A model generated the notes under the pieces. That model did no database searches, was not told the DNA's origin, and was given only the letters and a program-made list of their open reading frames with translations. The position numbers and the translations under genes were made by a program. Shown piece by piece: positions 2,981 through 19,314 of a stretch of DNA of 21,116 bases. Within the stretch, counting starts at the first letter, position 1. The number at the start of each line of letters is the position of its first letter. The DNA comes from a virus: positions 1-21,116 of IMG/VR virus record IMGVR_UViG_3300034407_004294, one strand, 5' to 3'.

Positions 2981-3009
2981 AATATCCCTTTAATCCTAAC
3001 AAGGATATT
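2981..3009 (+). terminator. Stem-loop after the uvsY-uvsW operon, possible weak terminator
   Basis: AATATCC (2981-2987) and GGATATT (3003-3009) form a perfect 7-bp inverted repeat with a 15-base loop, starting on the base after a stop codon. No clear T-tract follows, so intrinsic termination would be weak; it may instead protect a 3' end. A stem-loop followed by a promoter resembles the promoter-early/stem-loop (PeSL) cassettes described in T4-type phages. Confidence 0.4.
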
Positions 3010-3048
3010 ATAACAACTTAACAAATTGATGTCAAGCATTCTTTTTAC

Positions 3049-3077
3049 TTGACAAAGTATTATAAAGATCGTATTAT
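3049..3077 (+). promoter_or_regulatory. Host-type (sigma70-like) promoter for gp55
   Basis: TTGACA at 3049-3054 and TATTAT at 3072-3077 are separated by 17 bases, the optimal spacing. Transcription should start around 3083-3085, right at the first in-frame ATG (3085), so the leader is very short. The -10 and the seven bases after it (ATACATT), followed by ATG, are repeated almost exactly at the queE promoter. Confidence 0.82.
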
Positions 3078-3096: not shown

Positions 3097-3651
3097 ATGA
3101 AAAAAACAAAAAACGCACACTATGTAGACAACAAAAAGTTCTACGCAGCTATTAAAGATTGGAAAGTTGAGTGGGATGAAGCTGTTGCGAATAACGAGCC
3201 GACACCTCAGTGTACAAATTATTTGGGTGAGTGCTTTGTTAAAATTTCAAATCATTTGGCTTACAAGTCTAACTTTGTAAACTATACTTTCCGAGACGAG
3301 ATGATACTTGATGGCATTGAAAACTGTTTACGATATGCTGACCGTTTCAATCCTGAAAAATCTGATAATCCGTTTGCATACTTTACCCAAATAACTTACT
3401 ATTCTTTTGTTAGGCGTATAAAGAAAGAAGCAAGACAAACTGAGACAAAATTAAACTACTTCCAAAGCATTGACCTTCAGCAGTTGTTGGATGAGATTGA
3501 GGGTGATGGACACAGTTATGAATATCTCTCTTGGGTAAGGGATCAAGTAGACACAAATATGAAAGAAAAAGCCCAATTGGATAGTATCATACCAGATTCT
3601 GCAAAAAGCAAACGCCGTCCGCTATATTTTGACGAAGAAAATAATTCTTGA
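3097..3651 (+). CDS. 55: Late-transcription sigma factor gp55
   Basis: gp55 is the minimal sigma subunit that directs host RNA polymerase to TATAAATA late promoters, working with the sliding clamp gp45 and coactivator gp33 in T4. From ATG 3097 the product is 184 residues, against 185 in T4, and its start (KNAHYVDNKKF) aligns with T4 KYNYVNNKEL. The sigma region-2-like core contains 'RDEMILDGIENCL', 'FNPEKSDNPFAYFTQ' and 'VRRIKKE', matching the same T4 segments. The C-terminal 'RRPLYFDEE' corresponds to the clamp-binding tail of T4 gp55. GGAG (3087-3090) sits six bases before ATG 3097. ATG 3085 is an alternative start adding four residues, and an in-frame TTG at 3049 lies inside the promoter and is not a start. 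The stop codon lies within the -35 element of the next promoter. Confidence 0.93.
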   Translation: MKKTKNAHYVDNKKFYAAIKDWKVEWDEAVANNEPTPQCTNYLGECFVKISNHLAYKSNFVNYTFRDEMILDGIENCLRYADRFNPEKSDNPFAYFTQITYYSFVRRIKKEARQTETKLNYFQSIDLQQLLDEIEGDGHSYEYLSWVRDQVDTNMKEKAQLDSIIPDSAKSKRRPLYFDEENNS

Positions 3652-3676
3652 CATATAGCTTTTAGTGCTATATAAT
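3648..3676 (+). promoter_or_regulatory. Consensus sigma70-type promoter of the queE operon
   Basis: TTGACA (3648-3653), a 17-base spacer and TATAAT (3671-3676) match the consensus perfectly. The -35 overlaps the gp55 stop codon. Only seven bases (ATACATT) separate the -10 from the queE ATG at 3684, so the mRNA would begin at or next to the start codon. This is the only good promoter seen before a run of overlapping genes reaching 15571. Confidence 0.87.
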
Positions 3677-3683
3677 ATACATT

Positions 3684-4571
3684 ATGAAAATCAGATACTC
3701 TGAAACATTCTATTCTTTCCAAGGCGAGGCAGAACTAGCCGGAACTCCTACTGTTTGGTTACGTTTTTTTGGATGTAACCTAGAGTGTAATGGTTTCGGA
3801 CAAAAAAATCCTGCATTGCCAGAAAGCCATAAACTTCCATACAAAGAATTTGATCCTAATACAATACGAACAGTCGAAGAACTTCCCGTGTGGGAGTATG
3901 GTTGTGATAGTTCTTATTCGTGGTCAATGAAATATAAACACCTAGCTAAAGACTCAACAGTCGAAGGTATTTGTGATGAACTAGAGTCTAAACTCCCTTA
4001 TGGTAGTTTTATGAATCCTTTTACTGGACAAGAAAATATGTTAGCTTTTACTGGTGGTGAACCCATGTTATGCCAACGACAGATGAAAGCAATAGTAGGT
4101 GAGTTTCTTCATCGAGGTAATGTCCCTAAAATTATCACAGTAGAAACAAACGGCACAAAACCTTTGAATCCTGAACTTCAAGACTATATCAATACATACT
4201 TGTCTGAAATCGGTATACGTTGGCATTGGGCTATCAGTCCAAAAATTCTGCATACTTCAGGTGAAAAAGATGCAGTTGATGTTGGTAATTTTATGTCATA
4301 TGTTGACGGTGTTAAAGGCACATCTTGCATAAAGTTTGTGTGTAATGGCAGCACCGCTAGTTGGCGTGAGATTTCTCACTATAAAGATGAAATTATTGAA
4401 TATTGTATACACGCTGAAATACCTGTTCCTGATATTTGGATTATGCCTGTAGGAGCTACAAAAGAAGAACAGGAAAAAGTTGCCAATATTTGTATCACGG
4501 CAATGCAACAAGGTTATAAAGTCGCTACGAGGAACCATGCTTATGTCTTTGGCAATCAAATCGGAACATAG
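3684..4571 (+). CDS. queE: QueE, 7-carboxy-7-deazaguanine synthase (radical SAM)
   Basis: QueE rearranges 6-carboxy-tetrahydropterin (CPH4) to 7-carboxy-7-deazaguanine (CDG), the third step towards preQ0, using a 4Fe-4S cluster and S-adenosylmethionine. The N-terminus has the family phrase 'YSETFYSFQGEAELAGTP' and 'WLRFFGCNLEC'. Candidate cluster cysteines are C31, C35 and C74: the usual CX3CX2C motif is split, with 38 residues between the second and third cysteine, and C74 sits in GCDSSYSW like the usual CD(T/S). TGGEP (123-127) is the SAM-binding GGEP motif, and ETNGT (154-158) also fits the family. At 295 residues it is longer than most QueE, mainly because of this insertion. No Shine-Dalgarno precedes the ATG, consistent with leaderless translation from the adjacent promoter. 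Confidence 0.88.
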   Translation: MKIRYSETFYSFQGEAELAGTPTVWLRFFGCNLECNGFGQKNPALPESHKLPYKEFDPNTIRTVEELPVWEYGCDSSYSWSMKYKHLAKDSTVEGICDELESKLPYGSFMNPFTGQENMLAFTGGEPMLCQRQMKAIVGEFLHRGNVPKIITVETNGTKPLNPELQDYINTYLSEIGIRWHWAISPKILHTSGEKDAVDVGNFMSYVDGVKGTSCIKFVCNGSTASWREISHYKDEIIEYCIHAEIPVPDIWIMPVGATKEEQEKVANICITAMQQGYKVATRNHAYVFGNQIGT

Positions 4572-4575
4572 CACC

Positions 4576-4983
4576 ATGTCAGTTGAATGGGATTACGTTG
4601 AAGTATTAGTAGAAGAGATAGCTAAACGTATTAAAAGAAGAGAAATAAAATTTGACAATATTATAGGATTGTCCAGAGGCGGACTTGTACCTGGAGTGAT
4701 GCTGTCTCACGCTTTGGGTGTTAATTTTATTTCATTGGTGTGGCAAACAAGAGACGGCGATAAAAAAGACAGAGAACTGTTGTCTAAATATAATAGTAGC
4801 AAAACTCTTATAGTGGATGATCTAGTTGATTCAGGAGAAACATTTTTTCAAATAAAAGAAACTGCGCCTGATGTACAATATTGTGCGTTATTTAATAAGC
4901 AACCTTCAATAGCACTTGACTTTTGGGGTTCAACATTATACAATGAGAGCAGATGGTTAGATTTTCCATGGGAGCTACAATGA
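4576..4983 (+). CDS. gpt: Xanthine/guanine phosphoribosyltransferase, Gpt-like
   Basis: Gpt-type enzymes convert guanine or xanthine and PRPP to GMP or XMP. Starting at ATG 4576 gives 135 residues (E. coli Gpt has 152). The N-terminal '[20 protein letters not shown]' closely follows E. coli Gpt '[20 protein letters not shown]'. The PRPP loop is DDLVDSGET (81-89), and the C-terminal 'W...PW' (W127, P131-W132) matches the Gpt 'WIEQPW' that stacks on and specifies the purine. The C-terminus is shorter than in E. coli. It begins four bases after the queE stop and overlaps the next gene at ATGA, so it is embedded in the deazaguanine operon. Guanine recycling after DpdA base exchange is an attractive but untested role. 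A start further upstream inside queE is possible but lacks support. Confidence 0.82.
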   Translation: [135 protein letters not shown]

Positions 4984-5165
4984 GAACTAGCGCAATACGC
5001 AAAGAAGTAAATCCTAATATAAACGAATCAGATGTTACGTATGTGGTAGAGCTGTATGAAGATGGCGAACTAGTAGAAATGCGAGCATTGCCAAATAAAA
5101 GTATCCACTATGCTCTCGCTGTGAGTGAGAATTGGAACAATGGAATCATCAAACATGATAAGTGA
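4980..5165 (+). CDS. Small protein of unknown function
   Basis: I do not recognise this 61-residue protein. The ATG at 4980 overlaps the gpt stop (ATGA) and has GGAG at 4971-4974, five bases upstream, which supports this start over an in-frame one at 4953. The sequence has an N-terminal basic stretch, then a likely beta hairpin (VTYVVELYEDGELVEMRAL), and a short helix (IHYALAVSENW). This layout is typical of small phage proteins translated between metabolic genes. It overlaps the folE start region by about 26 bases. Confidence 0.6.
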   Translation: MRTSAIRKEVNPNINESDVTYVVELYEDGELVEMRALPNKSIHYALAVSENWNNGIIKHDK

Positions 5166-5838
5166 TCTAATAAAATCTAGGTTAAAAAAAGCAGGCAAAA
5201 GATATTATGCCTCAGACAATATTGCTGAGTTTTTACATGATGGTGAGAAGGAAAAACTAGTAGAAGAATTGACTGAAAAATTCAGTGGTGTTCTTGACAG
5301 CCTTGTCATTGACAGTGACAACGATCCTAATTCACAAGGCACAGCAAAAAGATTAGCTAAAATGTATATCAATGAACTCATGTCGGGTCGTTATGACATG
5401 ATGCCAAACGCTACAGCATTTCCTAATCATATAGATGATGGCTTTGAAGGTATGCTTGTTGTTCGCAGCGAAATAACTTCAATGTGTTCACATCACCATC
5501 AACCCGTCAAAGGCGTAGCTTACATAGGCATCATTGCAGCAGATAAACTAATTGGTTTGTCTAAGTATACACGTATAGCACAATGGTGTGCAAGACGAGG
5601 CACACTACAAGAAGAACTAGCGAACGATATTGCTAGTGAAATTATGAAAGCTACTGGCAGTCAGAACTTAGGTGTTTATATTCAAGCCACTCATGGCTGT
5701 GTAGAACACAGAGGTGTTCAGGCACACAGTTCTTTGACTCAGACAACAGTCCTTAAAGGTAGTTTCTTCAATGATGCAGGAACTAGAAAAGAATTTTTTG
5801 ACAATATTAAATTACAACAGGATCACGCTCCAAGATGA
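5140..5838 (+). CDS. folE: FolE, GTP cyclohydrolase I
   Basis: FolE converts GTP to 7,8-dihydroneopterin triphosphate, the first committed step for both folate and 7-deazaguanine synthesis. The 232-residue product shows the full type I signature: 'MCSHHHQPVKGVAYIG' with zinc ligands C116 and H119, 'KLIGLSKYTRIAQWCARR', and 'ATHGCVEHRGV' with the third zinc ligand C187 and the GTP-binding histidine H185. The C-terminal 'T.TTVLKGSF' also fits. The ATG at 5140 is preferred; GTG 5125 and ATG 5155 are in-frame alternatives, and none has a strong ribosome binding site. The first 25 bases overlap the previous gene and the stop overlaps the next start (ATGA), so translation is likely coupled. With queE, queD and dpdA nearby, its job is probably DNA modification rather than folate supply. 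Confidence 0.92.
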   Translation: MESSNMISDLIKSRLKKAGKRYYASDNIAEFLHDGEKEKLVEELTEKFSGVLDSLVIDSDNDPNSQGTAKRLAKMYINELMSGRYDMMPNATAFPNHIDDGFEGMLVVRSEITSMCSHHHQPVKGVAYIGIIAADKLIGLSKYTRIAQWCARRGTLQEELANDIASEIMKATGSQNLGVYIQATHGCVEHRGVQAHSSLTQTTVLKGSFFNDAGTRKEFFDNIKLQQDHAPR

Positions 5839-6377
5839 GAATAAAACCTAATCAACCCCAGGTTGTTGTAGACTTAGAAACACTCAGTACACACGCAAAT
5901 GCGTGTATCGTGTCTATAGGCGCTGTAAAATTTACACTTGATGATGGTATACTTGATGAATTTTTTGTAAATGTAGAGCCAACTACCTGTAAAGATGTCG
6001 GCTTACACTTTGACAAAAACACAATTGAATGGTGGACAAAGCAAACACCTGAAGCACGTAAATCGTGGCAAGAAAATCCTATACCGTTGACTGATGCTCT
6101 TTTACAGTTTGCAGATTTTTATGAAACAGGCAATCCTATTTGGGGCAACGGTGCTAACTTTGATATAACCATACTAGAATCAGCATACTATGCTATAGGG
6201 TACGACAAAGATAAAGAATACGGACAACACTTGCCATGGAAGTTTTGGGACATTTATTGTTTGCGTACACTGACAAATATATTAGATAAAAAGTTAGAAA
6301 AAACAGGCATCAATCACAATGCTTTACACGATGCTATTGCTGAAGCACGTTTAATTATTGATATTTTAAAGTCTTAA
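5835..6377 (+). CDS. DEDDh 3'-5' exonuclease, DexA/Rv2179c-like
   Basis: This 180-residue protein has the DnaQ-type exonuclease fold with all the acidic motifs: 'VVVDLETLS' (D13, E15), 'GNGANFDI' (D110) and 'HNALHDAIAEA' (H161, D166). These make it a DEDDh nuclease with two-metal catalysis. The phrase 'IEWWTKQTPEARKSW' is typical of the T4 DexA and Rv2179c-like branch, whose members act on DNA or RNA 3' ends. T4 DexA is 227 residues, so this is a shorter version. It overlaps folE by four bases and ends two bases before dpdA. There is no obvious reason for it to belong to the modification pathway; it could degrade host DNA or RNA into precursors, or act in repair. Substrate preference cannot be read from sequence. 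Confidence 0.83.
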   Translation: MRIKPNQPQVVVDLETLSTHANACIVSIGAVKFTLDDGILDEFFVNVEPTTCKDVGLHFDKNTIEWWTKQTPEARKSWQENPIPLTDALLQFADFYETGNPIWGNGANFDITILESAYYAIGYDKDKEYGQHLPWKFWDIYCLRTLTNILDKKLEKTGINHNALHDAIAEARLIIDILKS

Positions 6378-6379
6378 TT

Positions 6380-7645
6380 ATGAATAGAAAACTAGAATAT
6401 GTGTTGTCAGGCACATCCTATGTTCGTCTGACAAATCCGCAATTGATAAACAATCCTGCAAACGTAGAAGTAGTAAACGAATTGTTTGACCACTTTTTTG
6501 ACGGTAAATATTCCCACAATTGTTCATTGCTGTACAACGCCTATGCTGAATCAGGTTTCGGTGAACGTATGCAAAAGTTTACAAACCATATCCAAAACAT
6601 ACACGCTGATTCTGGTGGTTTGCAAATGATTACACTCGGTAAAACTATTACGCCTGAACTAAAAGATAAAGTTTACGAGAATCAAGCTAAGTGGGCAGAC
6701 GTTGGTATGTGTTTTGATGAAATACCTTTGGTTCTCACAGGAGAAAGATCAGAACGTAATGCTACAAGAGACAGGTATTTTGACAAAGATAACTTTGAAC
6801 ATTATGCAAGACTTACTGGTAAAAATATTAAAAGACAACTAGAAATTTTTGAACAAAATGACAGTAATTGTAAACCTTTTTTAATTTTACAAGGTCATTG
6901 TTATGATACCTATATGCAATGGTATGATTGGGTGTTGGATGAAATACCTCAGTCAGAACACCATCGTATAGGAGGTCTTGCAATGGGAGCAGCAGCACTT
7001 GGTACAGGTCCGTTAGAAGATGTACAACGAGCTTTTATTGCAAGTCAAATACCTTGGCATCAGGACAAAATGCACCTTCACATACTGGGTGTTGGATCAC
7101 TTAGACGCCTACTGCCTTATTTGATTTTTTGTCAAAATGGTTTATACGACCGTATGGAAATTTCATACGATTCTACTACACATTCTAGAGCAGTTGAAAC
7201 AGGATTGTATTATCTGAACAACAGTACAATGAAATACAATAGAGACCCAGATGATAGATATAGAATCATATTAGAAGATGTTAAAAAACAATATCCTCAA
7301 CTAGATATACCTAAAGAAAAATTTTATGAAATGTTAAACACAGCCGGCAGTCCTTGGTTTGAAAAATATGGTAGTATCACTGAATGGCAAAGAACTAGAA
7401 CTGCTATGATATTCGGATGTGTGTCTAACTTTATGAAACACGTAGAAGAAATCATGTTGGACAAAGAAAAATTGTTAGAATTTGCCAACAAAATAAAACT
7501 TGACACGCAGTATCGAGGATTGTACAATATACAAAATAAAGATGATTTTGATTATTGGATGAACAATCCTTATCTCGGCAAAGAAATGAAAACAATGCCA
7601 ATTTCAGATGAACCACCAGAATCACTTGAAGATTTATTTGTATAG
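6380..7645 (+). CDS. dpdA: DpdA-like DNA 7-deazaguanine transglycosylase
   Basis: DpdA proteins, relatives of tRNA-guanine transglycosylase (TGT), exchange guanine in DNA for a free 7-deazaguanine base. The 421-residue protein has 'HADSGGLQM' (D77 in DSGG), 'CFDEIPL' (D113), 'QGHCYDTY', 'GGLAMG' (198-203) and 'ILGVGSLRRL', the TIM-barrel order of TGT. D264 in 'ISYDSTTHSRA' lines up with the TGT nucleophile region 'FDC..PTR.AR'. The TGT zinc cluster CxCxxC is absent, as expected of a divergent phage DpdA. No good ribosome binding site precedes ATG 6380, only two bases after the exonuclease stop. Neighbouring folE, queE and queD would supply its substrate. A tRNA target cannot be ruled out from sequence, but the divergence and context favour DNA. 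Confidence 0.85.
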   Translation: MNRKLEYVLSGTSYVRLTNPQLINNPANVEVVNELFDHFFDGKYSHNCSLLYNAYAESGFGERMQKFTNHIQNIHADSGGLQMITLGKTITPELKDKVYENQAKWADVGMCFDEIPLVLTGERSERNATRDRYFDKDNFEHYARLTGKNIKRQLEIFEQNDSNCKPFLILQGHCYDTYMQWYDWVLDEIPQSEHHRIGGLAMGAAALGTGPLEDVQRAFIASQIPWHQDKMHLHILGVGSLRRLLPYLIFCQNGLYDRMEISYDSTTHSRAVETGLYYLNNSTMKYNRDPDDRYRIILEDVKKQYPQLDIPKEKFYEMLNTAGSPWFEKYGSITEWQRTRTAMIFGCVSNFMKHVEEIMLDKEKLLEFANKIKLDTQYRGLYNIQNKDDFDYWMNNPYLGKEMKTMPISDEPPESLEDLFV

Positions 7646-7653
7646 GAGTTATA

Positions 7654-7884
7654 ATGGACGCACAAAAAGTTAGAAATGCAATTGTAGAAGTATCAGATGC
7701 CATGACTAGGGCACAAGCAGAACGAGAACTTATACGTGAAATAGTAAAAAAGATTCACGATGAGGAAGGACTTGACAAGCGAGTGTTCCGTAAAATGGCA
7801 TCAGTGTATTACAAAGGCAACTTCCAGGATGAAACTGCCCTAAATTCAGAGTTTGAGGACACATTCACACAAGTAATGAGTTAA
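7654..7884 (+). CDS. dsbA: DsbA, double-stranded DNA-binding protein
   Basis: T4 DsbA is a small double-stranded DNA-binding protein that binds at late promoters. This 76-residue product (T4: 89) shares the C-terminal pattern: 'IREIVKKIHDEEGLDKRVF' against T4 'IRIRAKDELGVDGKMF', then 'YYKGN' against 'YHKDN', and an acidic end 'FEDTF' against 'YDTVF'. The N-terminus is probably a helix. GGAG (7645-7648), five bases before ATG 7654, is one of the better ribosome binding sites in this operon. It lies eight bases after dpdA. The assignment rests on a short alignment, so the function is moderately sure. Confidence 0.72.
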   Translation: MDAQKVRNAIVEVSDAMTRAQAERELIREIVKKIHDEEGLDKRVFRKMASVYYKGNFQDETALNSEFEDTFTQVMS

Positions 7885-7886
7885 AC

Positions 7887-8438
7887 ATGAACATATTTTA
7901 TCTACACCCTAATACTAAAACTTGCGCTCAACATCATTGTGACAAGCACGTGGTAAAGATGATTATAGAGTATGCACAGTTGATGTCTACAGCACATCGT
8001 GTGCTTGACGGCACTATGTATCAAGCCAAAACTAAACTCAATCGCAACATCAAGCGTTGGCGTATGGTAGACAGTGAATTTGAGAACATACTATACAAGG
8101 CTTCTCACATTAATCATCCTTCAGGTAAGTGGTGTAGGATGACAAAAGAAAACTATGGCTACTTGTATAGTTTGTGGATAGAACTTTGCAAAGAGTACAC
8201 TCATAGGTATGGTAGAAAACATTTGACACAGGAGAAACTAGAACATATACTAGTTAATACACCTAAGAATATGCCTAGCGCAGGTGTTACTACTATGCCA
8301 CAAGCAATGCCTGATGATGTTAAGATGCCTGACCCTTTAGACGGGTATCGTAAATACTACAGAACATACAAGCGAGACTTTGCTAAGTGGACAAACAGAC
8401 AAGTACCGGAGTGGTTCAATGCCAGTAAACAAACGTAA
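7887..8438 (+). CDS. Conserved phage protein with Cys/His-rich N-terminus
   Basis: I recognise the sequence type as a family common in marine T4-like and other phages, but know no established function. The 183-residue protein opens with 'MNIFYLHPNTKTCAQHHCDKHVVKM' in segments rich in Cys and His (C13, H16, H17, C18, H21), has 'SAHR'-like 'STAHRVL', then 'HINHPSGKWCR..KENY', a proline-rich stretch 'MPSAGVTTMPQAMPDD', and ends with 'YYRTYKRDFAKWTNRQVPEWF'. The CxxHHCxxH cluster could bind metal (inference). The rest is helical and basic, suiting a nucleic acid-binding or nuclease-like protein. It starts two bases after dsbA and its 3' end is close to the next gene's start. Confidence 0.7.
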   Translation: MNIFYLHPNTKTCAQHHCDKHVVKMIIEYAQLMSTAHRVLDGTMYQAKTKLNRNIKRWRMVDSEFENILYKASHINHPSGKWCRMTKENYGYLYSLWIELCKEYTHRYGRKHLTQEKLEHILVNTPKNMPSAGVTTMPQAMPDDVKMPDPLDGYRKYYRTYKRDFAKWTNRQVPEWFNASKQT

Positions 8439-8442
8439 TACA

Positions 8443-8778
8443 ATGATAAGGGTATCCTTTCAGAAAGAAGGGATACACAAATATCCTGCAGCAAAAGATC
8501 TTGAGGGTGTTGAGTTTTTACAATACCCTCATCGTCATATATTTCATTTTTATGTTCAGTTAGAAGTATTCCATGATGATCGTGAAGTAGAATTTATTTT
8601 ATTCAAGCGTGAACTTGAAGGACTTTTTGAAAAAGGTGTTATGCAAGCAGACTATAAGTCCTGTGAAATGATGGCAAATGATTTGTTAGACTATGTTGAA
8701 GTAAATTATCCTAATCGTATATGTCAGGTTGAGGTCTATGAAGATGATGAAAACGGAGCAATTGTAAACAATGCGTAA
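8443..8778 (+). CDS. Conserved phage protein with QueD/PTPS-like pattern
   Basis: This 111-residue protein belongs to a family I remember from many tailed phages as hypothetical. Its motif order resembles 6-pyruvoyl-tetrahydropterin synthase/QueD: 'YPHRHIFHFYVQLEVF' (H30, H32) sits where QueD has its HGH strand, 'REVEFILFKRELEGLF' where QueD has 'VVDFG.LK', and 'SCEMMANDLLDYV' plus 'QVEVYEDDENGA' where QueD has its final helix, strand and 'E....A' end. The catalytic Cys and the Asp-His pair of QueD are not evident, so it may be a non-catalytic or repurposed barrel. ATG 8443 fits the family start (MIRVSFQKEG). An alternative ATG at 8419 has GGAG seven bases upstream and would add eight residues. 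It overlaps the glycosyltransferase start by eight bases. Confidence 0.62.
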   Translation: MIRVSFQKEGIHKYPAAKDLEGVEFLQYPHRHIFHFYVQLEVFHDDREVEFILFKRELEGLFEKGVMQADYKSCEMMANDLLDYVEVNYPNRICQVEVYEDDENGAIVNNA

Positions 8779-9991
8779 ACTATTCTACATGGGACTAGAG
8801 TCCTACGAAGCACGGTACACATTACAGTTACAAGAATGGAATGAACGAGTATTCAATTTACGAGGTATTGATTACGAGGTTATCAATGGTGTAGAACTTG
8901 ATGACAGTAAAGCTATTGTCACAGGCAGTGTGCTTGATGCCCATGGTAGAACTTATTATAGTTTGTCACAGCACATGAACCTTATTCAGAAGATGAAGAA
9001 TGGTGAGGTGACAAGCGATGATGTTATTTTTTACGAGGATATGTACACTCCCGGACTTGAATGTTTGCCGTATATTATGGATCAAAGTCCTGCTGAATAC
9101 AGACCTAAAGTGTTCCTTCGTTTCTTAGCACAGACTACAGATCCAGATGACTTTCTAATACGTGAAGGTATGTTTGATTGGATGCGTAAGTATGAAGAAA
9201 TGGTTGACCAGTTTGTTGATGGTATCATGGTAGCATCAGAGGAGTTTGTAGCACATCTTCGTATTGCAGGATTTAAGAAACCAATCTACGTGACAGGTTT
9301 GCCTTATGGTAAGTCAGAAGTATTGGAACGAGTAACACCTACAAAAGATCTCAAAAACAGAACAAGGCGTGTGTGTTTTGCATCACGCTGGGATGACGAA
9401 AAATTACCTAACTTTTACATGGATCTTGCACAGGAGTATTTCAAAATAGATCCTACGGTTGAGTTTTCTATTTTATGTGGTCACCCTAAACTAAAAAGCA
9501 ATGATAAGCTGTATGTTGAGCGAGCAGAAAGTTTAGAAAGAGATAGCACAAAGGCTTGGTTACAAACAGCTAGATTCAAAATTTATACTGGTTTGAAAAA
9601 GAACGATTACTATGGTTTGTTGGCTGATAGTCAGGTACTTTTTAATTGTGCGCTACAAGATTGGGTTAGTAATACAGTCAGCGAATCAGACACTATGGGT
9701 TGTTTGACATTGTTCCCAGCATATAGAAGTTTTCCTGAGGTGTTTGCTAACAATGCTAATCACTTGTATGTTCCATGGTCAATAGAAGATGCGGTTGAAA
9801 AATTACAAAGAATGTTTAATTCAATTGACAATGATGATTTAGACAAGTATAATATAGGTAAGATAAGTGATTATCAAAACGGAACAATAGACAGAACTAT
9901 TGATTGTATGTTAGACGGTGAAAACTCTCCTTATTTGAGAGGTCACGTTGATTATCGTAAACACGTAACAAAGGCAAAATATGAAAGATAA
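8771..9991 (+). CDS. Glycosyltransferase, GT-B fold (GT4-like)
   Basis: The 406-residue protein has a two-domain GT-B layout. The N-terminal half (1-175) includes an acceptor-side domain with 'VIFYEDMYTPGLECLPYI' and 'IMVASEEFVAHL'. The C-terminal half begins with 'VCFASRWDDEKLPNFYMDLA' (201-220), typical of the GT4 donor domain entry, and contains 'GLLADSQVLFNCALQDWVSNTVSESDTMGCLTLFP' in segments (283-315), where the conserved Glu and Gly of the nucleotide-sugar site (E305, G310) are expected. The sugar donor and acceptor cannot be read from sequence. It overlaps galE by 11 bases, so the two are made together. Possible acceptors are modified DNA bases, phage structural proteins or host surface glycans. 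Confidence 0.8.
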   Translation: MRKLFYMGLESYEARYTLQLQEWNERVFNLRGIDYEVINGVELDDSKAIVTGSVLDAHGRTYYSLSQHMNLIQKMKNGEVTSDDVIFYEDMYTPGLECLPYIMDQSPAEYRPKVFLRFLAQTTDPDDFLIREGMFDWMRKYEEMVDQFVDGIMVASEEFVAHLRIAGFKKPIYVTGLPYGKSEVLERVTPTKDLKNRTRRVCFASRWDDEKLPNFYMDLAQEYFKIDPTVEFSILCGHPKLKSNDKLYVERAESLERDSTKAWLQTARFKIYTGLKKNDYYGLLADSQVLFNCALQDWVSNTVSESDTMGCLTLFPAYRSFPEVFANNANHLYVPWSIEDAVEKLQRMFNSIDNDDLDKYNIGKISDYQNGTIDRTIDCMLDGENSPYLRGHVDYRKHVTKAKYER

Positions 9992-10916
9992 TGTATTAGT
10001 TACAGGTGGCAATGGTTACATAGGAACACAAACAGTCTTACAGTTGAAAGCTGCAGGTTATGAACCTGTTGTTGTAGATTGGGTTGCAGACACAGCTAAG
10101 AACTCCTACACTTACTCATTTGATGATAATGCTGTTTTAGATATTATGAAACGGCACAACATCAAATCAGTGATACACTTTGCTGCTGACCATGAAGTAG
10201 GTCGCAGCGTTGAGGAACCATCAGTGTTTTACAACAACAATGTTGTCAGTAGTATCAAGTTTCTTGATAAGTGTATTCAAGCAGGTGTTGAAAAGTTTAT
10301 CTTCAGTAGCTCTAGTAGTGTATATGGTGATGATCCAGAATTTCCTACAACAGAAAATAACAAAAAAAATCCTATGTCGCCTTATGGTAGAACAAAGGAT
10401 ATGTTTGAAGAGGTACTGCTAGATTACGATAGAGCTTACGGTATCAAAACAATGTCTCTTAGGTACTTCAATGCTGCGGGTGCTGACCCATTAAACAGGC
10501 ATGGTTATTGTCAAGATACTTACTCACATTTGGTTCCTATTCTTGCTAGATGTTTCGGGCAGGATCTTCCTTTTACTATTTTCGGTAAAGACTATGACAC
10601 CCCTGACGGAACTTGCATAAGAGACTATACCCATGTTTATGATATTGCAGATGCACACATCAAAGCATTGGATTATGAAGGACCAGAAAGAATATTTAAT
10701 ATAGGAAAAGGTAAAGGCGAAAGTGTTATAAATGTTATAAATGCTTTTGAAGAATATACAGGAAAGAAAATAAAAATAAATGTTACAGGAAGAAGAATGG
10801 GTGACCCTGCAAAAACATTTGCAAACATAGATCTTGCAAAAAATTATTTGAATTGGACTCCGATCTATTCAATTGAGGATATAGTCGAACACGCTTACAA
10901 GTGGGAGAACAGATGA
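9981..10916 (+). CDS. galE: UDP-glucose 4-epimerase-like sugar-nucleotide epimerase
   Basis: This extended short-chain dehydrogenase interconverts UDP-sugars, most likely UDP-glucose and UDP-galactose. The 311-residue protein has the NAD-binding motif 'VTGGNGYIG' (G9, G12, G15), 'VIHFAADHEVGRSVEEP' with the GalE pattern, 'SSSSSVYG' (109-116) with the catalytic Ser/Thr region, Y135-K139 in 'YGRTK', 'RYFNAAGADP', and 'RDYTHVYDIADAHI', a GalE hallmark. It is a little shorter than E. coli GalE (338), mostly at the C-terminus. AAGG at 9971-9974 precedes the ATG by six bases. It overlaps the glycosyltransferase upstream and queD downstream (ATGA), so it probably supplies the donor sugar for the transferase. 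The exact sugar remains open. Confidence 0.88.
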   Translation: MKDNVLVTGGNGYIGTQTVLQLKAAGYEPVVVDWVADTAKNSYTYSFDDNAVLDIMKRHNIKSVIHFAADHEVGRSVEEPSVFYNNNVVSSIKFLDKCIQAGVEKFIFSSSSSVYGDDPEFPTTENNKKNPMSPYGRTKDMFEEVLLDYDRAYGIKTMSLRYFNAAGADPLNRHGYCQDTYSHLVPILARCFGQDLPFTIFGKDYDTPDGTCIRDYTHVYDIADAHIKALDYEGPERIFNIGKGKGESVINVINAFEEYTGKKIKINVTGRRMGDPAKTFANIDLAKNYLNWTPIYSIEDIVEHAYKWENR

Positions 10917-11362
10917 AATATTATTCAACGAAAACGTATGGGCATGAACGTGGGTTGTCTTGTGTATTTAGACAACCTAATGCCACGCATAGCCATTGTT
11001 CACTGCTACATGGTTACTCATTAGGATTCAGTTTTAAGTTTGGCACTGAAGCTCTTGATGATAAAAACTGGGTAGTAGACTTTGGTGGCTTAAAGAAACT
11101 GAAAAATTGGTTAGAAGATACTTTTGACCACACAGTTGTTGCAGACAACAACGATCCACATCTTAAAGACTTGTTTGAACTACAAGAAAAAGGAATTGCT
11201 AAGGTTGTAGTTATGCGAGGTGTTGGTTGTGAAATGTTTGCAGAGGAAGCCTTTTGGGTAGCAGACAGTATAGTAAAAGAACTGACAAATGGTAGATGTC
11301 ATTGTGTGTCGTGTGAAGTAAGGGAACACGGTGCTAACTCTGCTATATACGAGCGTGAATGA
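10913..11362 (+). CDS. queD: QueD, 6-carboxy-5,6,7,8-tetrahydropterin synthase
   Basis: QueD turns dihydroneopterin triphosphate into CPH4, the second step of 7-deazaguanine synthesis. The 149-residue protein has 'YGHERGLSCVFRQ' (H11), 'NATHSHCSLLHGYSL' (H26, H28, C29, H33), 'WVVDFGGLKKL', 'DTFDHT' (D72, H73) and 'CEVREHGANSA' (E137, H139). C29, D72 and H73 match the catalytic triad and the histidines the zinc site. The usual HGH is HGY here, a feature I remember from a family of alphaproteobacterial homologues, so it is probably a subfamily trait rather than damage. ATG 10913 overlaps the galE stop and has GGGAG (10903-10907) five bases upstream; an in-frame GTG at 10901 is less likely. The stop overlaps the gp47 start. 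Confidence 0.88.
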   Translation: MKYYSTKTYGHERGLSCVFRQPNATHSHCSLLHGYSLGFSFKFGTEALDDKNWVVDFGGLKKLKNWLEDTFDHTVVADNNDPHLKDLFELQEKGIAKVVVMRGVGCEMFAEEAFWVADSIVKELTNGRCHCVSCEVREHGANSAIYERE

Positions 11363-12420
11363 AGATAGCTTTAGTTACTGACTTGCATTTCGGTGCAAGA
11401 AGCGACTCACTAGCTTTTGATGCGCACTTCCGAAAATTTTATGAAGATACCTTTTTCCCTTACCTTCAAGAACACGGCATCAAAACTGTATTTGACCTTG
11501 GTGATACGTTTGACAGACGTAAATATATAAATTATAATAGTTTAAAAAGTTGTAAAGAATATTTTTTTGATAGGTTACAAGATCTAGGTATTGATCTTCA
11601 CATGATAGCAGGTAACCATGATACCTATTATAAAAATACAAACATAGTAAACTCTCCAGACTTACTATTACAAGAGTACAACAACATCACTCTGTATAAT
11701 GAAGTTACAGAAGTGAAGATGGGTAAAACTAATATACTTTTTGTGCCATGGATATGCGTAGATAACTATGATAGTAGCCTTCAAAAAATTTCAGAATCGA
11801 AAGCGGACGTTTGTCTGGGACATTTTGAATTTTCGGGTTATCAGATGTATCGTGGTACTCCTAATCCCCATGGTATGGACCCTAGCCTTTTTAATCATTT
11901 ACCTTTGGTTATTAGTGGTCATTTTCACCACAGGCATACTCAGGGCAATATCACGTACATGGGCAACCCTTATCAGATAACTTGGTCAGACTATGATGAT
12001 CCTAGAGGATTTGCTGTATTAGATTGTGACAACCAGGAGTTAAGTTATGTTGACAACCCTAAACAGATTTTTCATAAATTATATTACGATGATTCCAGTG
12101 AATTGGGTCGAGATAGTATTAACAATTGTAGTTTTTCAGATTATAAAAATTGTTGCATAAAAGTTATTGTAGTAAACAAAACAGACTTCAATAAATTTGA
12201 TTCTTTTATTGACAATTTATATCAACAGGATCTAATTGAACTAAAAATCATTGAGGATTTATCTGATTTTGAAGATGAGGCAGTAGGTGATGACATTGAT
12301 CTAGAAGATACGATGACGCTGCTCAAAGATTATGTTGATGGCATTGACATAAATTTAGATAAGGAAAAACTAAAAGTATTGTTACAATCATTATACGTTG
12401 AAGCACAGGATGTTGCATGA
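11359..12420 (+). CDS. 47: gp47, SbcD/Mre11-like recombination nuclease subunit
   Basis: gp47 is the nuclease subunit of the T4 gp46-gp47 complex, which resects double-strand ends for recombination-dependent replication and helps degrade host DNA. The 353 residues (T4: 339) carry the calcineurin-like metallophosphatase motifs in order: 'TDLHFG' (D8, H10), 'DLGDTFDRR' (D49), 'AGNHDTYY' (N86, H87), 'LGHFEFSG' (H155) and 'SGHFHHRH' (187-193). The C-terminal third is acidic and probably contacts gp46. The start overlaps the queD stop by four bases and the stop overlaps gp46 likewise, so the subunits are translationally coupled. Confidence 0.95.
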   Translation: MKIALVTDLHFGARSDSLAFDAHFRKFYEDTFFPYLQEHGIKTVFDLGDTFDRRKYINYNSLKSCKEYFFDRLQDLGIDLHMIAGNHDTYYKNTNIVNSPDLLLQEYNNITLYNEVTEVKMGKTNILFVPWICVDNYDSSLQKISESKADVCLGHFEFSGYQMYRGTPNPHGMDPSLFNHLPLVISGHFHHRHTQGNITYMGNPYQITWSDYDDPRGFAVLDCDNQELSYVDNPKQIFHKLYYDDSSELGRDSINNCSFSDYKNCCIKVIVVNKTDFNKFDSFIDNLYQQDLIELKIIEDLSDFEDEAVGDDIDLEDTMTLLKDYVDGIDINLDKEKLKVLLQSLYVEAQDVA

Positions 12421-14087
12421 TAAAATTTACTGCTATTAGGTGGAAAAACTTTTTGTCTACTGGCAATGCTTTTACTGAGATAAAACTCAACAAAAGCAGT
12501 AGTACATTAGTTCTAGGTGAGAATGGTTCTGGTAAGTCTACGTTACTAGATGCTCTTACGTTTACATTATTCAACAAACCTTTTCGTAATGTATCTAAAC
12601 CTCAGTTGATAAACTCTATCAACAAAAAGAAGTTGTTAGTGGAGGTTGAGTTTAACATAGGAAGTAAACAATATCTTGTACGCAGAGGTAGTTTACCTGG
12701 TATATTTGATATAGAAATTGACGGTGAACCTCTAGACCAAAATGCAAATGTTAGAGACTTTCAAAAACACCTTGAAGAAAATATTTTAAAACTAAACTAC
12801 AAGTCTTTTACACAAATTGTTATATTAGGTAGTGCATCCTTCACTCCTTTTATGCAATTGACTCCCAATGTTAGAAGAGAGATCATTGAGGACATTTTAG
12901 ACATACGTATTTTTTCAACAATGAAAGATGTGTTGAAAGGTAAAATAACAGAACTCAAAGAAAAAATACGGTTTACTGAGAGTGAAATAATTGTAGAAAA
13001 AGAAAAGGGTAAAGTACAAAAAAGTTATGTCGAAACACTAGAGTCTGATAAACAAGAACGTATTGATAAAATACAGGGAGATATAGATGAAACAAACTCA
13101 ACAATCACAAGCCTTACAGAGAGTGCAACCTCTTGCACAACAGAGAAGAAGAATCTTGGCTCAGTTGAATCAAAAAAGCAGAAACTGGAGACCTATAATC
13201 AAGAAATAATTAGGAAGATAAAAGAGCATCAAAAAGAAGTAGATTTTTATCACAATAATGATGATTGTCCTACTTGCAAACAAGGCATACCGCATGAGTT
13301 TAAAGTCAGTATGTCAGAAGAAAAGAAGGACAGGATTGATGAACTTGAAACTGCGAGTAAAGACCTAAAGAAAAACTTAGAAGAAGTGAATGAGTTGTAT
13401 GAAAAAGTTTTGTCTTTAGACGAACAAATTATGAGCTTCAATAATCAAATCATCACAAATCAAACACTTCTGCAACGGCTTGTATTAGAAAAATCTGAGG
13501 CTGAAAGTAAAGTAGGTGACATTGAAAAAGAAACTGAAAAGTTAAAACAAACAGCTAAGAAAATCATGGAACTGACAAGCAACAAAAATGTTTTGTCAGA
13601 GGAACAACAATACAATAGTGTTGCAGAAAATTTACTCAAAGACTCAGGTATAAAAACTAAAATTATTCGTCAATATTTGCCTGTCATAAATAAGTTAGTG
13701 AATAAATATTTAACTGCCATGGACTTCTTTGTTCAGTTTGAGTTAGACGAAACATTTAAAGAAACAATAAAGTCCAGACACAGAGATAAGTTTAGTTACG
13801 CTTCATTTAGTGAAGGTGAAAAACAAAGAATAGATTTGGCACTTGTATTCACTTGGCGAACTATTGCTAAAATGAAAAACAGTGCCAGTACAAATTTATT
13901 ACTTTTAGACGAGGTTTTTGATAGCTCTCTAGATGTTAATGGTACTGACTATGTTATGACCTTGTTAAACACAATAGGTGAGGATACAAATGTGTTTGTA
14001 ATTTCTCACAAAGGAGATCAACTGTTTGACAAGTTTAGAAGTGTTATCAGATTTGAAAAGAAAAACAATTATTCGGTGATGGTATAA
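12417..14087 (+). CDS. 46: gp46, SbcC/Rad50-like recombination ATPase
   Basis: gp46 is the ATPase partner of gp47. The 556 residues (T4: 560) show Walker A 'GENGSGKST' (34-42), two long coiled-coil arms (about 170-275 and 295-395) joined by a zinc hook 'CPTC' (C283, C286), the ABC signature 'FSEGEKQR' (463-470) and Walker B 'LLLLDEVFD' (493-501), followed by the D-loop 'SSLD'. Dimerisation through the hook and ATP-driven opening are known for the family. AGGA (12407-12410) lies six bases before the ATG, which overlaps the gp47 stop. The stop shares one base with the def start. Confidence 0.96.
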   Translation: MIKFTAIRWKNFLSTGNAFTEIKLNKSSSTLVLGENGSGKSTLLDALTFTLFNKPFRNVSKPQLINSINKKKLLVEVEFNIGSKQYLVRRGSLPGIFDIEIDGEPLDQNANVRDFQKHLEENILKLNYKSFTQIVILGSASFTPFMQLTPNVRREIIEDILDIRIFSTMKDVLKGKITELKEKIRFTESEIIVEKEKGKVQKSYVETLESDKQERIDKIQGDIDETNSTITSLTESATSCTTEKKNLGSVESKKQKLETYNQEIIRKIKEHQKEVDFYHNNDDCPTCKQGIPHEFKVSMSEEKKDRIDELETASKDLKKNLEEVNELYEKVLSLDEQIMSFNNQIITNQTLLQRLVLEKSEAESKVGDIEKETEKLKQTAKKIMELTSNKNVLSEEQQYNSVAENLLKDSGIKTKIIRQYLPVINKLVNKYLTAMDFFVQFELDETFKETIKSRHRDKFSYASFSEGEKQRIDLALVFTWRTIAKMKNSASTNLLLLDEVFDSSLDVNGTDYVMTLLNTIGEDTNVFVISHKGDQLFDKFRSVIRFEKKNNYSVMV

Positions 14088-14605
14088 TGAAAGAACTAGA
14101 GTTGTTGCCTTTCGGTGATCCTTTTTTGAGTAACAAACCCAGTGAGTTTGATTTTGAAAAAGAAGATGCTAGAGAACTGAGCCTAAGACTGTTTCATGCT
14201 ATGGGTAAGGCAGGTGGTATAGGATTATCTGCTAATCAAGTTGGACTTGATATGAAAGTGTTTGTTATGGGCGGCAATGATAAAGTGCCATCCAAAGCAA
14301 TATTTAATCCTAAATTGCAAAGTGTATCTGATAAAATGGTTAGTATGAAAGAAGGGTGTTTGTCATATCCAGGACTTTGGTTAATGATAAAACGACCTGT
14401 AGAATGTTCAATTTCATATCAGGATGAAACAGGTGCTGTTATTGCAGAGGGGTTTTCTGGATTTTCAGCAAGAGTTGTTTTGCACGAATACGATCATATG
14501 TTGGGTCAAAATTTTACTCAGAGAGCATCTTCTTTGAAGCTACAAAGAGCTATGAAACATATGGACAAAAAAGTAAAGAACTTTAAGAGAGGAAAAAATG
14601 TCTGA
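14087..14605 (+). CDS. def: Peptide deformylase
   Basis: Peptide deformylase removes the formyl group from the starting methionine of new proteins. The 172-residue protein holds all three motifs: 'GIGLSANQVG' (44-53), 'EGCLSYPG' (89-96) with the metal-binding Cys91, and 'VLHEYDHMLGQNF' with H133, E134 and H137. The first motif has Ser where many have Ala, and the third has HEYDH rather than HE(I/F)DH, both minor changes. All catalytic residues are kept, so it should be active. Deformylases are recurrent in marine T4-like phages and may speed maturation of phage or photosystem proteins. It starts on the last base of the gp46 stop and overlaps the next gene by eight bases. Confidence 0.93.
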   Translation: MKELELLPFGDPFLSNKPSEFDFEKEDARELSLRLFHAMGKAGGIGLSANQVGLDMKVFVMGGNDKVPSKAIFNPKLQSVSDKMVSMKEGCLSYPGLWLMIKRPVECSISYQDETGAVIAEGFSGFSARVVLHEYDHMLGQNFTQRASSLKLQRAMKHMDKKVKNFKRGKNV

Positions 14606-14966
14606 CGATATATTCGATTTCGGTTTTACTGCGGTAGATGAAATGCCTACCTCTACAACCGTACAGGAACCTGTAGTAGCACAGGTAGACGATACACAGC
14701 TACAAACTATAATGGACAAGTTAGAAAGACTTGAGAGTTTGGTGTTGACTTCAGATAATTCTTCAATGATTAATGAACACCGTGAGCTTGTGCAGCAAGA
14801 TGTGACTGCAAAACTTGGACAAGTAGAGGACCTTATCTTACCACTACTGTATAATCTACAAAAGAATCCAGAGAAGGATTATATTCATTGGCCTAATAGG
14901 ACGGCTATCATAGATAAACAAATAGAAAGGATCAAAGCGGTAACACGTTACTATGAAAATGTTTAG
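14598..14966 (+). CDS. Conserved small marine T4-like phage protein, unknown function
   Basis: I recognise the N-terminus 'MSDDIFDFGFTAVDE' and the C-terminal phrase 'NLQKNPEKDYIHWPNRTAIID' as typical of a small protein conserved in marine T4-like phages, but know no demonstrated function. The 122 residues divide into an acidic, flexible start (about 1-32), a helical middle with heptad-like leucines ('LQTIMDKLERLESLVL'), and the conserved C-terminal segment followed by a helix. A role as a scaffold or adaptor is possible (inference). A strong ribosome binding site (AGAGAGGA ending at 14593) precedes ATG 14598, which overlaps def by eight bases. Confidence 0.72.
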   Translation: MSDDIFDFGFTAVDEMPTSTTVQEPVVAQVDDTQLQTIMDKLERLESLVLTSDNSSMINEHRELVQQDVTAKLGQVEDLILPLLYNLQKNPEKDYIHWPNRTAIIDKQIERIKAVTRYYENV

Positions 14967-14974
14967 GAGATAGT

Positions 14975-15571
14975 ATGTCAGATAATGAAAAAGGATTGGA
15001 TACTTTTACAGGTGTAGAAGGAGTATTTGCAAGACCTACAGGAAACCTATTTGATTTTTATTTGAACGGTGAACTTGAAGGACCTGGAAGTTACGTTGAA
15101 TGGAATCATATTATACGAACAGCACAAGAAACAGATGTAATTTATCTGCACATTAATTGTTATGGTGGTGATGTAATGACTGCGGTACAGTTAATGCGAG
15201 CTTTATCCGAATCAAATGCTCACGTAATTGCTTCGGTTGAAGGCGCTTGTATGTCAGCTGCTACCTTTGTATTCTTAATTGCAGACTCATTTGAAATTTC
15301 AGACCACAGTATGTTTATGTTTCACAATTATTCAGGTTTCTCTATAGGTAAAGGAAACGAAATGAAAGAGCAGATCATGCACGAGGAGAAGTGGGCTAAA
15401 AATTTACTTACCAAACTGTATGATGGATTTCTGACTAAGGATGAAATCAAGGAAATATGTAATGGACGAGACATTTGGATGTCCCCAGATGAAGTCGGAT
15501 CTCGCTTGGAGAAACGAAACAGCCTCAAAACCACTCCCAAAAAAAAGACAAAAGCGAAAAAAACTGCTTGA
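14975..15571 (+). CDS. clpP: ClpP-like serine protease
   Basis: The 198-residue protein has the ClpP/crotonase fold pattern: 'VIYLHINCYGGDVMTAVQLMRAL' in segments, 'SVEGACMSAATFVFLIAD' with the nucleophile Ser94, 'MFMFHNYSG' with His117, and a late Asp/Glu-rich stretch 'GRDIWMSPDEVG' where the third catalytic residue is expected. Length matches ClpP (about 200). ClpP usually has GSAASM around the serine; ACMSAATF is divergent but keeps Ser and small neighbours. The helix docking a Clp ATPase cannot be judged. The C-terminal 14 residues are lysine-rich. AGGAGA (14965-14970) sets the start. Phage ClpP-like enzymes can act in head maturation or, as in marine phages, in host protein turnover. Its stop codon forms part of the next promoter's -35. 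Confidence 0.85.
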   Translation: MSDNEKGLDTFTGVEGVFARPTGNLFDFYLNGELEGPGSYVEWNHIIRTAQETDVIYLHINCYGGDVMTAVQLMRALSESNAHVIASVEGACMSAATFVFLIADSFEISDHSMFMFHNYSGFSIGKGNEMKEQIMHEEKWAKNLLTKLYDGFLTKDEIKEICNGRDIWMSPDEVGSRLEKRNSLKTTPKKKTKAKKTA

Positions 15572-15596
15572 CAAACTAAAAAAGAGATAATATACT
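15568..15596 (+). promoter_or_regulatory. Sigma70-type promoter reading into a stem-loop
   Basis: TTGACA (15568-15573), 17 bases, then TATACT (15591-15596). The preceding bases (TGC) give TGCTTGACA, shared with the promoters at 15694 and 19318. Start of transcription would be near 15603, and the only thing immediately downstream is the long stem-loop ending at about 15690, so the product could be a short RNA. Confidence 0.7.
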
Positions 15597-15602
15597 ATAA
15601 GT

Positions 15603-15690
15603 TATTGTTCTTAAAGTAAAAAAGAAAGCCCTTATATTTCAAGCACTTAGCACATTTTCACGTAAGTCATTGATTTATAAGGGCTTTTAG
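15603..15690 (+). ncRNA. Candidate small structured RNA or terminator stem-loop
   Basis: AAAGCCCTTATA (15625-15636) and TATAAGGGCTTT (15676-15687) form a perfect 12-bp inverted repeat. Inside, TCAA (15639-15642) pairs with TTGA (15670-15673), and ACTTA (15645-15649) with TAAGT (15663-15667), giving a rod of three helices separated by two 2x2 internal loops and capped by a 13-base loop. The right arm runs into TTTT. A promoter lies directly upstream and none of this codes for protein. Seen alone it is a terminator-like hairpin for the queE-clpP operon; with its own promoter it would give an RNA of about 85 bases. A stem-loop followed by an early promoter also fits the PeSL cassette type known from T4-type phages. 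Which of these it is cannot be settled from sequence. Confidence 0.55.
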
Positions 15691-15693
15691 TGC

Positions 15694-15722
15694 TTGACAA
15701 ATACGAAAAAAGATGTCATAAT
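15694..15722 (+). promoter_or_regulatory. Sigma70-type promoter for the cobT-like gene
   Basis: TTGACA (15694-15699), 17 bases, CATAAT (15717-15722), preceded by TGC as in the neighbouring promoters. Start would be near 15729, leaving a leader of about 36 bases that carries TGAAAAAACG (15735-15744) and TTGTGAGGA (15746-15754), both repeated in the cobS-like leader. The ribosome binding site GAGGA ends 10 bases before ATG 15765. Confidence 0.78.
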
Positions 15723-15764
15723 ACACGCATAAAATGAAAAAACGGTTGTGAGGACCTTATCATT

Positions 15765-18008: not shown

Positions 18009-18018
18009 GTTATTGATA

Positions 18019-18062
18019 TTACAGGGCTTAAAGTTTGAGAAAATGCTTGACTTTTCCTGTAA
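18019..18062 (+). repeat. Inverted repeat flanking the -35 of the cobS-like promoter
   Basis: TTACAGG (18019-18025) and CCTGTAA (18056-18062) are perfect 7-base inverted arms separated by 30 bases. The right arm falls in the spacer between the -35 and -10 elements, a position where a bound protein could block polymerase. It might also be a weak hairpin after the cobT-like gene. The length is near what chance allows. Confidence 0.35.
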
Positions 18063-18074
18063 ACCGTGTATAAT
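18047..18074 (+). promoter_or_regulatory. Sigma70-type promoter for the cobS-like gene
   Basis: TTGACT (18047-18052), 16 bases, TATAAT (18069-18074), preceded by TGC as in three sister promoters. The leader of about 58 bases contains TGAAAAAACG (18088-18097) and TTGTGAGGA (18121-18129), shared with the cobT-like leader; GAGGAG (18125-18130) lies eight bases before ATG 18139. Confidence 0.82.
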
Positions 18075-18138
18075 ATAGCATATAAACTGAAAAAACGCAC
18101 TAAAATTTATTATTAATAGCTTGTGAGGAGCTTATATT

Positions 18139-19314
18139 ATGACAGACCGTAACGCAGCACTTATTGACACCCTCCGTTCATACGCTGACGGAAACAACCA
18201 TGTATCCCGTAAGGATATTATCCGTGAGGCTAAGGCTATTGGTATCAATCACCCTGGCTTTTTACTCAAAGATCAATTCAAGGTTGAGAAAGGCGTGTAT
18301 GATCTGACTGAGATGTTCACAGGCACTGCTGCGGTTCCCGTTGCAAGAAAGCCTATCATGGAGGTTGTCACACCAACACCTGCTCCTGTTGCAGCACCTG
18401 AGTCAAAGGTTGTATCAATGGCTAAACTTGCTATGGATATTGAGAACTTGGTCCCATCCAAAGATGCTACGTATGTACCCTTTGGTTTTCACAAGGACCT
18501 TAAAACTATTTTGCAGGGCGGTATGTTTTACCCTCTGTTTATTTCCGGCTTGTCCGGTAACGGTAAGACCACGATGGTTGAGCAGGTTTGCGCTCAGCTC
18601 AAGCGTGAGGCTATCCGTGTGAATATTAGTATTGAAACCGATGAGGACGATTTAATCGGTGGCAATACTCTGGTTGATGGTAACGTAGTCTATAGAGAAG
18701 GTCCCGTCCTCACCGCTATGAAGCGTGGGGCTGTTCTCATTCTTGACGAGGTAGACAGAGGCTCCAACAAGCTAATGTGCCTTCAAGCGATTCTTGAAGG
18801 TAAGTCCTACTTCAACAAGAAGACTGGCGAAACCGTCGCTCCTGCTCCCGGGTTTACAATAGTTGCAACGGCCAACACTAAAGGTCGAGGCTCAGATGAC
18901 GGCAAGTTTATCAGCGCACAGCTGCTAGACGAGGCTTTCCTCGAGCGTTTTGCAATTACCGTGGAGCAGGAGTATCCTACAGCAGCCGTAGAGAAACGCA
19001 TCATCCTTAACAAGATGAGCAAGGCTGGCTATACTGATGAGGACTTTGCTACTCATCTTGTCACTTGGTCTGAGGTTATCCGTAAGACCTTCTTTGAGGG
19101 TGCCATAGACGAGCTTGTCAGCACCCGTAGGCTTGAGCACATTGTCAATGCGTATGGTGTGTTCAAGGACAAGCTCAAGGCAATCACCTTGTGTACAAAT
19201 CGTTTTGACGCTGATACTAAGGCGGCCTTTATTGACTTGTATACTAAGGTTGACCCTTCAAACCCTCAGCCCGTTGAGGTTGAGGAGACTACTTCGGACG
19301 ATGTCGAGTTTTAA
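18139..19314 (+). CDS. cobS: CobS-like MoxR-family AAA+ ATPase
   Basis: The 391-residue protein is a MoxR/CobS-type AAA+ ATPase. The first 60 residues form a separate domain ('NHVSRKDIIREAKAIGINHPGFLL' in segments) that looks like a small helical, winged-helix-like module, followed by a Pro/Ala/Val-rich linker (about 62-92). The ATPase core has Walker A GLSGNGKTT (137-145), 'TDEDDLIGGNTLVDG' (168-181), Walker B 'LILDEVD' (200-206), sensor 1 'ATANT' (243-247) and 'LLDEAFLERF' (262-271) with an arginine at the finger position. CobS is common in marine T4-like phages and is often listed as a cobalamin gene, but the pairing here is ATPase plus VWA protein, without CobN in view. It probably forms a ring that works on or with the upstream CobT-like protein. 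GC is about 50% in a sampled stretch. Confidence 0.88.
   Translation: MTDRNAALIDTLRSYADGNNHVSRKDIIREAKAIGINHPGFLLKDQFKVEKGVYDLTEMFTGTAAVPVARKPIMEVVTPTPAPVAAPESKVVSMAKLAMDIENLVPSKDATYVPFGFHKDLKTILQGGMFYPLFISGLSGNGKTTMVEQVCAQLKREAIRVNISIETDEDDLIGGNTLVDGNVVYREGPVLTAMKRGAVLILDEVDRGSNKLMCLQAILEGKSYFNKKTGETVAPAPGFTIVATANTKGRGSDDGKFISAQLLDEAFLERFAITVEQEYPTAAVEKRIILNKMSKAGYTDEDFATHLVTWSEVIRKTFFEGAIDELVSTRRLEHIVNAYGVFKDKLKAITLCTNRFDADTKAAFIDLYTKVDPSNPQPVEVEETTSDDVEF

Follow-up and report, generated by a model that had tools for sequence, protein, structure and literature searches.

A gene block between gp55 and gp47 of a T4-type phage, encoding a glycosyltransferase and a further protein of QueD fold, may produce a sugar-decorated 7-deazaguanine in DNA

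The question raised by this locus is what DNA base, if any, would be produced by a set of 7-deazaguanine genes placed between gp55 and gp47 of a T4-type phage. The window, by which we mean the whole stretch of DNA analysed, is the entire 21,116-bp record IMGVR_UViG_3300034407_004294, a genome fragment of such a phage. FolE, QueD, QueE and a DpdA-like gene had been placed between gp55 and gp47 by the initial annotation, and all four are indeed present there on the + strand. Since gp55 ends at 3651 and gp47 starts at 11359, the block lies directly between them, and its genes, all on the + strand, follow one another in the order given here together with two promoter-type sites.

3648..3676, + strand: sigma70-type promoter without a mismatch (TTGACA-17-TATAAT), which opens the block and ends 8 nt upstream of the QueE ATG
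3684..4571, + strand: QueE-like radical SAM enzyme, putative CDG synthase (PHROG 2076, E=1.3e-46)
4576..4983, + strand: XGPRT-like phosphoribosyltransferase (Pfam PF00156, E=1.9e-7; start codon chosen by reading)
4953-5165, + strand: short ORF between the XGPRT-like gene and FolE
5140..5838, + strand: FolE, GTP cyclohydrolase I (Pfam PF01227, E=9.7e-39)
5835..6377, + strand: 3'-5' exonuclease of the Rv2179c/RNase T type (Pfam PF16473, E=6.8e-38)
6380..7645, + strand: DpdA2-type DNA-guanine transglycosylase, by homology to DpdA2 of nt-1 and KVP40
7654-7884 and 7887-8438, + strand: two small ORFs between the DpdA-like gene and Small
8419..8778, + strand: Small, a 119-aa QueD-fold protein (AlphaFold/Foldseek and alignments; start codon chosen from the relative L002)
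8771..9991, + strand: GT-B glycosyltransferase (GT), 406 aa (AlphaFold model and Foldseek)
9825..9853, + strand: perfect sigma70-type promoter-like site within the GT gene, upstream of GalE
9981..10916, + strand: GalE, UDP-glucose 4-epimerase (TIGR01179, 325 bits, where the cut-off is 262)
10913..11362, + strand: QueD, 6-carboxytetrahydropterin synthase family (Pfam PTPS, E=3.4e-14; PHROG 2389, E=2.5e-41)

Several neighbours overlap (FolE/exonuclease, Small/GT, GT/GalE, GalE/QueD and QueD/gp47), which fits what would be expected of an operon. A sigma70-type promoter directly 5' of QueE is also found in the relatives L002 and L003, and the position of the site in the window suggests that transcription starts at about the QueE ATG and gives a leaderless message. 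Sites of the form TTGACA-N17-TATAAT with at most one mismatch occur 9 times in the window against 0.34 expected; perfect or near-perfect ones were seen at 3007-3035 (-), 3049-3077 (+), 3648-3676 (+), 9825-9853 (+) and 11510-11538 (+). The T4 late promoter, TATAAATA, occurs once in the window, which is not above chance.

Another 37 T4-like loci have the same block between gp55 and gp47, each with QueE, FolE, DpdA, QueD, Small and GT, and the arrangement is therefore not due to chance. The XGPRT-like gene is found in 25 of these 37 modules and the exonuclease gene in 34; the exonuclease belongs to the operon, which does not imply a role in modification. The XGPRT-like protein matches the NCBIfam xanthine phosphoribosyltransferase model with E=2.6e-20, under that model's cut-off. 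As to the phage itself, no isolate is close: identity of its gp46 to proteins of cyanophage, Stenotrophomonas phage and Methylophilales phage origin reaches 48% at most.

Two observations on the surroundings were made by eye. Behind gp46 (14087-19314), translations resemble a peptide deformylase, a ClpP-like protease, a large VWA/CobT-like protein and a MoxR/CobS-like ATPase. In L002, a 98%-identical relative, an additional ORF that may encode a nuclease separates the homologue of 7887-8438 from Small (L002:10614-11075), and copper-protein-like ORFs lie at the contig end (L002:308-1608). In four other T4-type loci (L013, L078, L087 and L096) Small, QueE and QueD lie 3' of the deformylase gene and not between gp55 and gp47; the window-type GT and DpdA2 were not seen in the stretch read.

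FolE, QueD and QueE would together convert GTP to 7-carboxy-7-deazaguanine (CDG), the identities of these enzymes, like that of DpdA2, resting on homology. In QueE, residues C30, C34 and C73 are invariant in 100 relatives, with a long insertion ahead of the third Cys. When aligned with E. coli QueD, the window QueD keeps the catalytic Cys, the Asp/His pair and the Glu, and one of the three zinc His only. The motifs for each activity had been described as visible, which is true of the QueE Cys triad and of the QueD catalytic residues, but not of the QueD zinc site, where two His are lost, nor of DpdA, in which the CxCxxC zinc motif of the tRNA enzymes is missing (the protein has six Cys in all). 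The phage QueD family has HGY in place of the HGH of E. coli QueD, and the window protein lacks the first zinc His as well. HGY was considered as a marker of Small-bearing phages and rejected, as it is also present in QueD of pf16, a phage with QueC and no Small.

The product of 6380-7645 is 34.8% identical to DpdA2 of nt-1 (E=2e-45) and 35.4% identical to that of KVP40 (E=4e-45), and a comparison with 27 relatives shows strong conservation of its DSGG, FDEIP and SYDST segments. Its match to tRNA Tgt models is weak (TIGR00430, 1e-5). On one hand, this match, and the view taken of similar genes by the authors of the phage Ps15 study, who read them as tRNA queuosine genes (PMC9025141), would suit enzymes that modify tRNA in the manner of queuosine. 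On the other hand, such a role seems very improbable in view of the missing CxCxxC motif, of the modified DNA of nt-1, which carries a relative of this DpdA2 (PMC6884629), and of the survey by Hutinet in 2019, in which no QueA, QueG or QueH was found in the viruses analysed. Homology to the nt-1 enzyme and the lack of CxCxxC thus indicate that DNA rather than tRNA is the likely substrate. The Pfam TGT model PF01702 detected no transglycosylase in any phage record searched, KVP40 included, and is too insensitive here; the window DpdA family gave a short unsupported match only to DpdA of 9g, and profile searches of PDB sequences, run for the families of Small, GT and DpdA, yielded chance-level matches only, which is why structures were predicted. 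An extra ORF lies directly 5' of dpdA in L005 and BUCT-ZZ01 (L005:8640-10004, L006:10665-12008), and the one in L005 resembles, by eye, a GT4-type glycosyltransferase.

It needs to be said that 7-deazaguanine in the DNA of T4-type phages is already known: KVP40 carries FolE/QueD/QueE/QueC/DpdA2 (PMC8056088), nt-1 DNA contains dPreQ0, its DpdA2 inserting preQ0 (PMC6884629), and 15% of dG is changed to dPreQ1 in 6E351A (PMC12028318). The window block is a further case. The initial reading holds in part: homology and the association of the genes give good support to a module that modifies DNA with a 7-deazaguanine, and the presence of such a module in a T4-type phage is not new. These Schizotequatrovirus modules share with the window a T4-type phage, FolE, QueD, QueE and a homologous DpdA2; unlike the window block, they include QueC (and QueF or similar), have no Small and lie elsewhere in the genome, not in the gp55-gp47 interval where the window block, with its Small, GT and GalE, is found. 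The initial annotation overlooked that the block has no QueC, that it encodes a second QueD-fold protein, and that GT and GalE are tied to the module. Taken together, these three features point to a different, and probably further decorated, product.

No QueC is found in the 21,116-bp window, itself a fragment, and because none is encoded here the pathway would probably stop short of preQ0. Nine complete Small-bearing isolates (BUCT-ZZ01, ACP17, PA5oct, Phosso, RHph_I1_18, Bakedbeans, Ahp1_CNU-2021, phiST and MA9V-3) gave no QueC match; X1 gave a sub-threshold match only and D479 a partial one. Conversely, KVP40 and pf16, DpdA2 phages with full-length QueC, have no Small. We had considered QueC to be absent throughout the clade, which proved wrong, as QueC-family twins are present in G004 and G012. 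In G004, a 162-kb relative with the same module, they are tandem, divergent PP-loop proteins encoded about 50 kb from the module (L178, G004:15000-17500). It may thus be argued that the module is an ordinary one leading to dPreQ0, dADG or dG+, with QueC supplied by the host or from elsewhere in the phage and with GT and GalE serving an unrelated role (surface, virion or other DNA glycosylation); the fragmentary window, the G004 twins and the preQ0-inserting DpdA2 of nt-1 (PMC6884629) are in line with this. Still, we regard such an explanation as rather unlikely, as neither QueC nor the twins were found in complete BUCT-ZZ01, complete ACP17 or the 222-kb G011, and nearly every GT has Small and 7-deazaguanine genes in its vicinity.

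What, then, might act on CDG? The AlphaFold model of Small (pLDDT 94) gave 16 Foldseek matches in the PDB with E<=0.001, all of them E. coli QueD (best E=3e-5, probability 1.00). In the alignment, H17, H35 and H37 of Small correspond to the zinc triad H16/H31/H33 of E. coli QueD, and E105 to E110, while C27 and the D70/H71 dyad have no counterpart. In E. coli QueD, C27 and the dyad are catalytic and E110 anchors the substrate. Nor are a catalytic Cys and Asp/His among the invariant residues of 45 Small relatives. The two proteins therefore share the fold, the zinc His triad and the anchoring Glu, but Small, encoded in an operon with a separate QueD, lacks the catalytic Cys and the dyad. Judged by these residues, it keeps a QueD-like site but cannot perform QueD chemistry by the usual route. 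With no QueC, CDG would be its natural substrate; the probable role of Small is to convert CDG, or a compound derived from it, and decarboxylation is one plausible reaction.

A CDG decarboxylase has reportedly been named DpdL by Cui and colleagues (2023); nothing relevant on DpdL or on glycosylated 7-deazaguanine was found in the literature searched. Were Small this DpdL, the module might simply end at dCDG or dDG, with GT acting on something else. The activity reported for DpdL, the QueD-like site without QueD catalytic residues, and the occurrence of Small without GT alongside FolE, QueD and QueE in phiST and others would all agree with that. We nevertheless hold it to be improbable, as the tie between GT and Small in 136 of 139 loci would be left unexplained.

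This tie deserves closer description. The GT model (pLDDT 80) matched retaining GT-B enzymes (BshA, MshA, PimA) in Foldseek at E of about 1e-8, whereas a Pfam search of the 8771-9991 product gave no match. Among 80 IMG/VR loci fetched with the GT protein alone, a set that favours near relatives of the query, Small was present in 77, and all 49 loci of at least 14 kb had Small together with at least one of QueE, FolE and QueD. Over all loci fetched, including those fetched by Small, the figure is the 136 of 139 GT loci already given, with a median distance of 808 bp between gene centres. Even in PA5oct-like phages, where GT identity falls to about 23%, the association holds. In phiST, RHph_I1_18 and others, on the other hand, Small is present with no GT detected in its neighbourhood, and from this one-sided pattern GT appears to depend on the product of Small. 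GalE accompanies GT in 65 of the 80 GT-fetched loci and in 17 of the 37 gp55-gp47 modules.

PA5oct-like and other jumbo phages resemble the window in that Small adjoins GT, with QueE and often FolE and GalE, but they have another transglycosylase in place of DpdA2: in 51 of 66 GT loci without DpdA2 there is a member of a DSGG-containing family, about 520 aa in length, which includes PA5oct gp168 and has a relative in Phosso. Against the DpdA2 profile this family scores a probability of 95.9% (E=5e-9). The Small-GT pair is thus combined with two transglycosylase families that are only distantly related, which favours a functional tie to base exchange over the inheritance of one block. In T4, as in the window, a glycosyltransferase gene lies between 47 and 55 and a sugar is placed on a modified base, which for the window is a proposal; however, homology of GT to T4 AGT was not detected (hhalign probability 0.2), and the acceptor would be 7-deazaguanine and not hydroxymethylcytosine. 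Hydroxymethylcytosine is an unlikely acceptor in G004, G011, BUCT-ZZ01, ACP17 and X1, since no thymidylate-synthase/hydroxymethylase-family gene was found in them (G004 and G011 being possibly incomplete contigs).

We thus propose, with a probability of roughly 55%, that the block is a DNA base-modification operon in which a CDG-derived base is inserted by DpdA2 and probably glycosylated by GT. The analysis shows what the genes encode, the folds of the modelled proteins and how tightly the genes are linked; from CDG onwards we infer the pathway, including the order of its steps, the identity of the base, the action of GT on DNA and the protection. In this pathway, Small would convert CDG or its derivative, and DpdA2 would exchange guanine in phage DNA for the product; the XGPRT-like enzyme may salvage the guanine freed by the exchange. 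GT would then probably glycosylate the modified base with a UDP-sugar coming from GalE or the host, and the sugar, by analogy with T4, would hide the DNA from host nucleases. The fragmentary window, the QueC-family genes of G004, the bias of the fetched loci towards near relatives, the presence of GalE in only 17 of 37 modules and the loss of two of three zinc ligands in QueD count against this proposal. Its weakest point is that a decarboxylated 7-deazaguanine offers no obvious group for O-glycosylation; the sugar might instead be held by the carboxylate of CDG, as a glycosyl ester, or through a bond at C7.

The cassette is common, with at least 584 and at least 598 confirmed matches in two scans of viral contigs. 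It is possible, and we suggest it tentatively, that a widespread phage system is involved, in which CDG is made without QueC and converted by a QueD-fold protein, the product is inserted by a transglycosylase of one or the other family, and a hexose is added by a GT-B enzyme that GalE often accompanies. As the cassette is also present in cultured phages, namely BUCT-ZZ01 (Synechococcus elongatus PCC 7942), PA5oct-like phages (P. aeruginosa PAO1) and Phosso (Sinorhizobium meliloti), the prediction of a glycosylated base is directly testable.

The phage 7-deazaguanines known to date have small substituents at position 7 (PMC6884629), and no report of a sugar-bearing guanine analogue in DNA was found in the literature searched. 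A block that has no gene for making preQ0 but includes a GT and a reworked protein resembling QueD suggests a DNA base that would be new and may bear a sugar. If this is true, a sugar at position 7 would represent a new class of hypermodified base, a sugar-bearing guanine analogue that parallels the glucosylated hydroxymethylcytosine of T4, and its bulk would shield the DNA of these phages from restriction and perhaps also from CRISPR nucleases.
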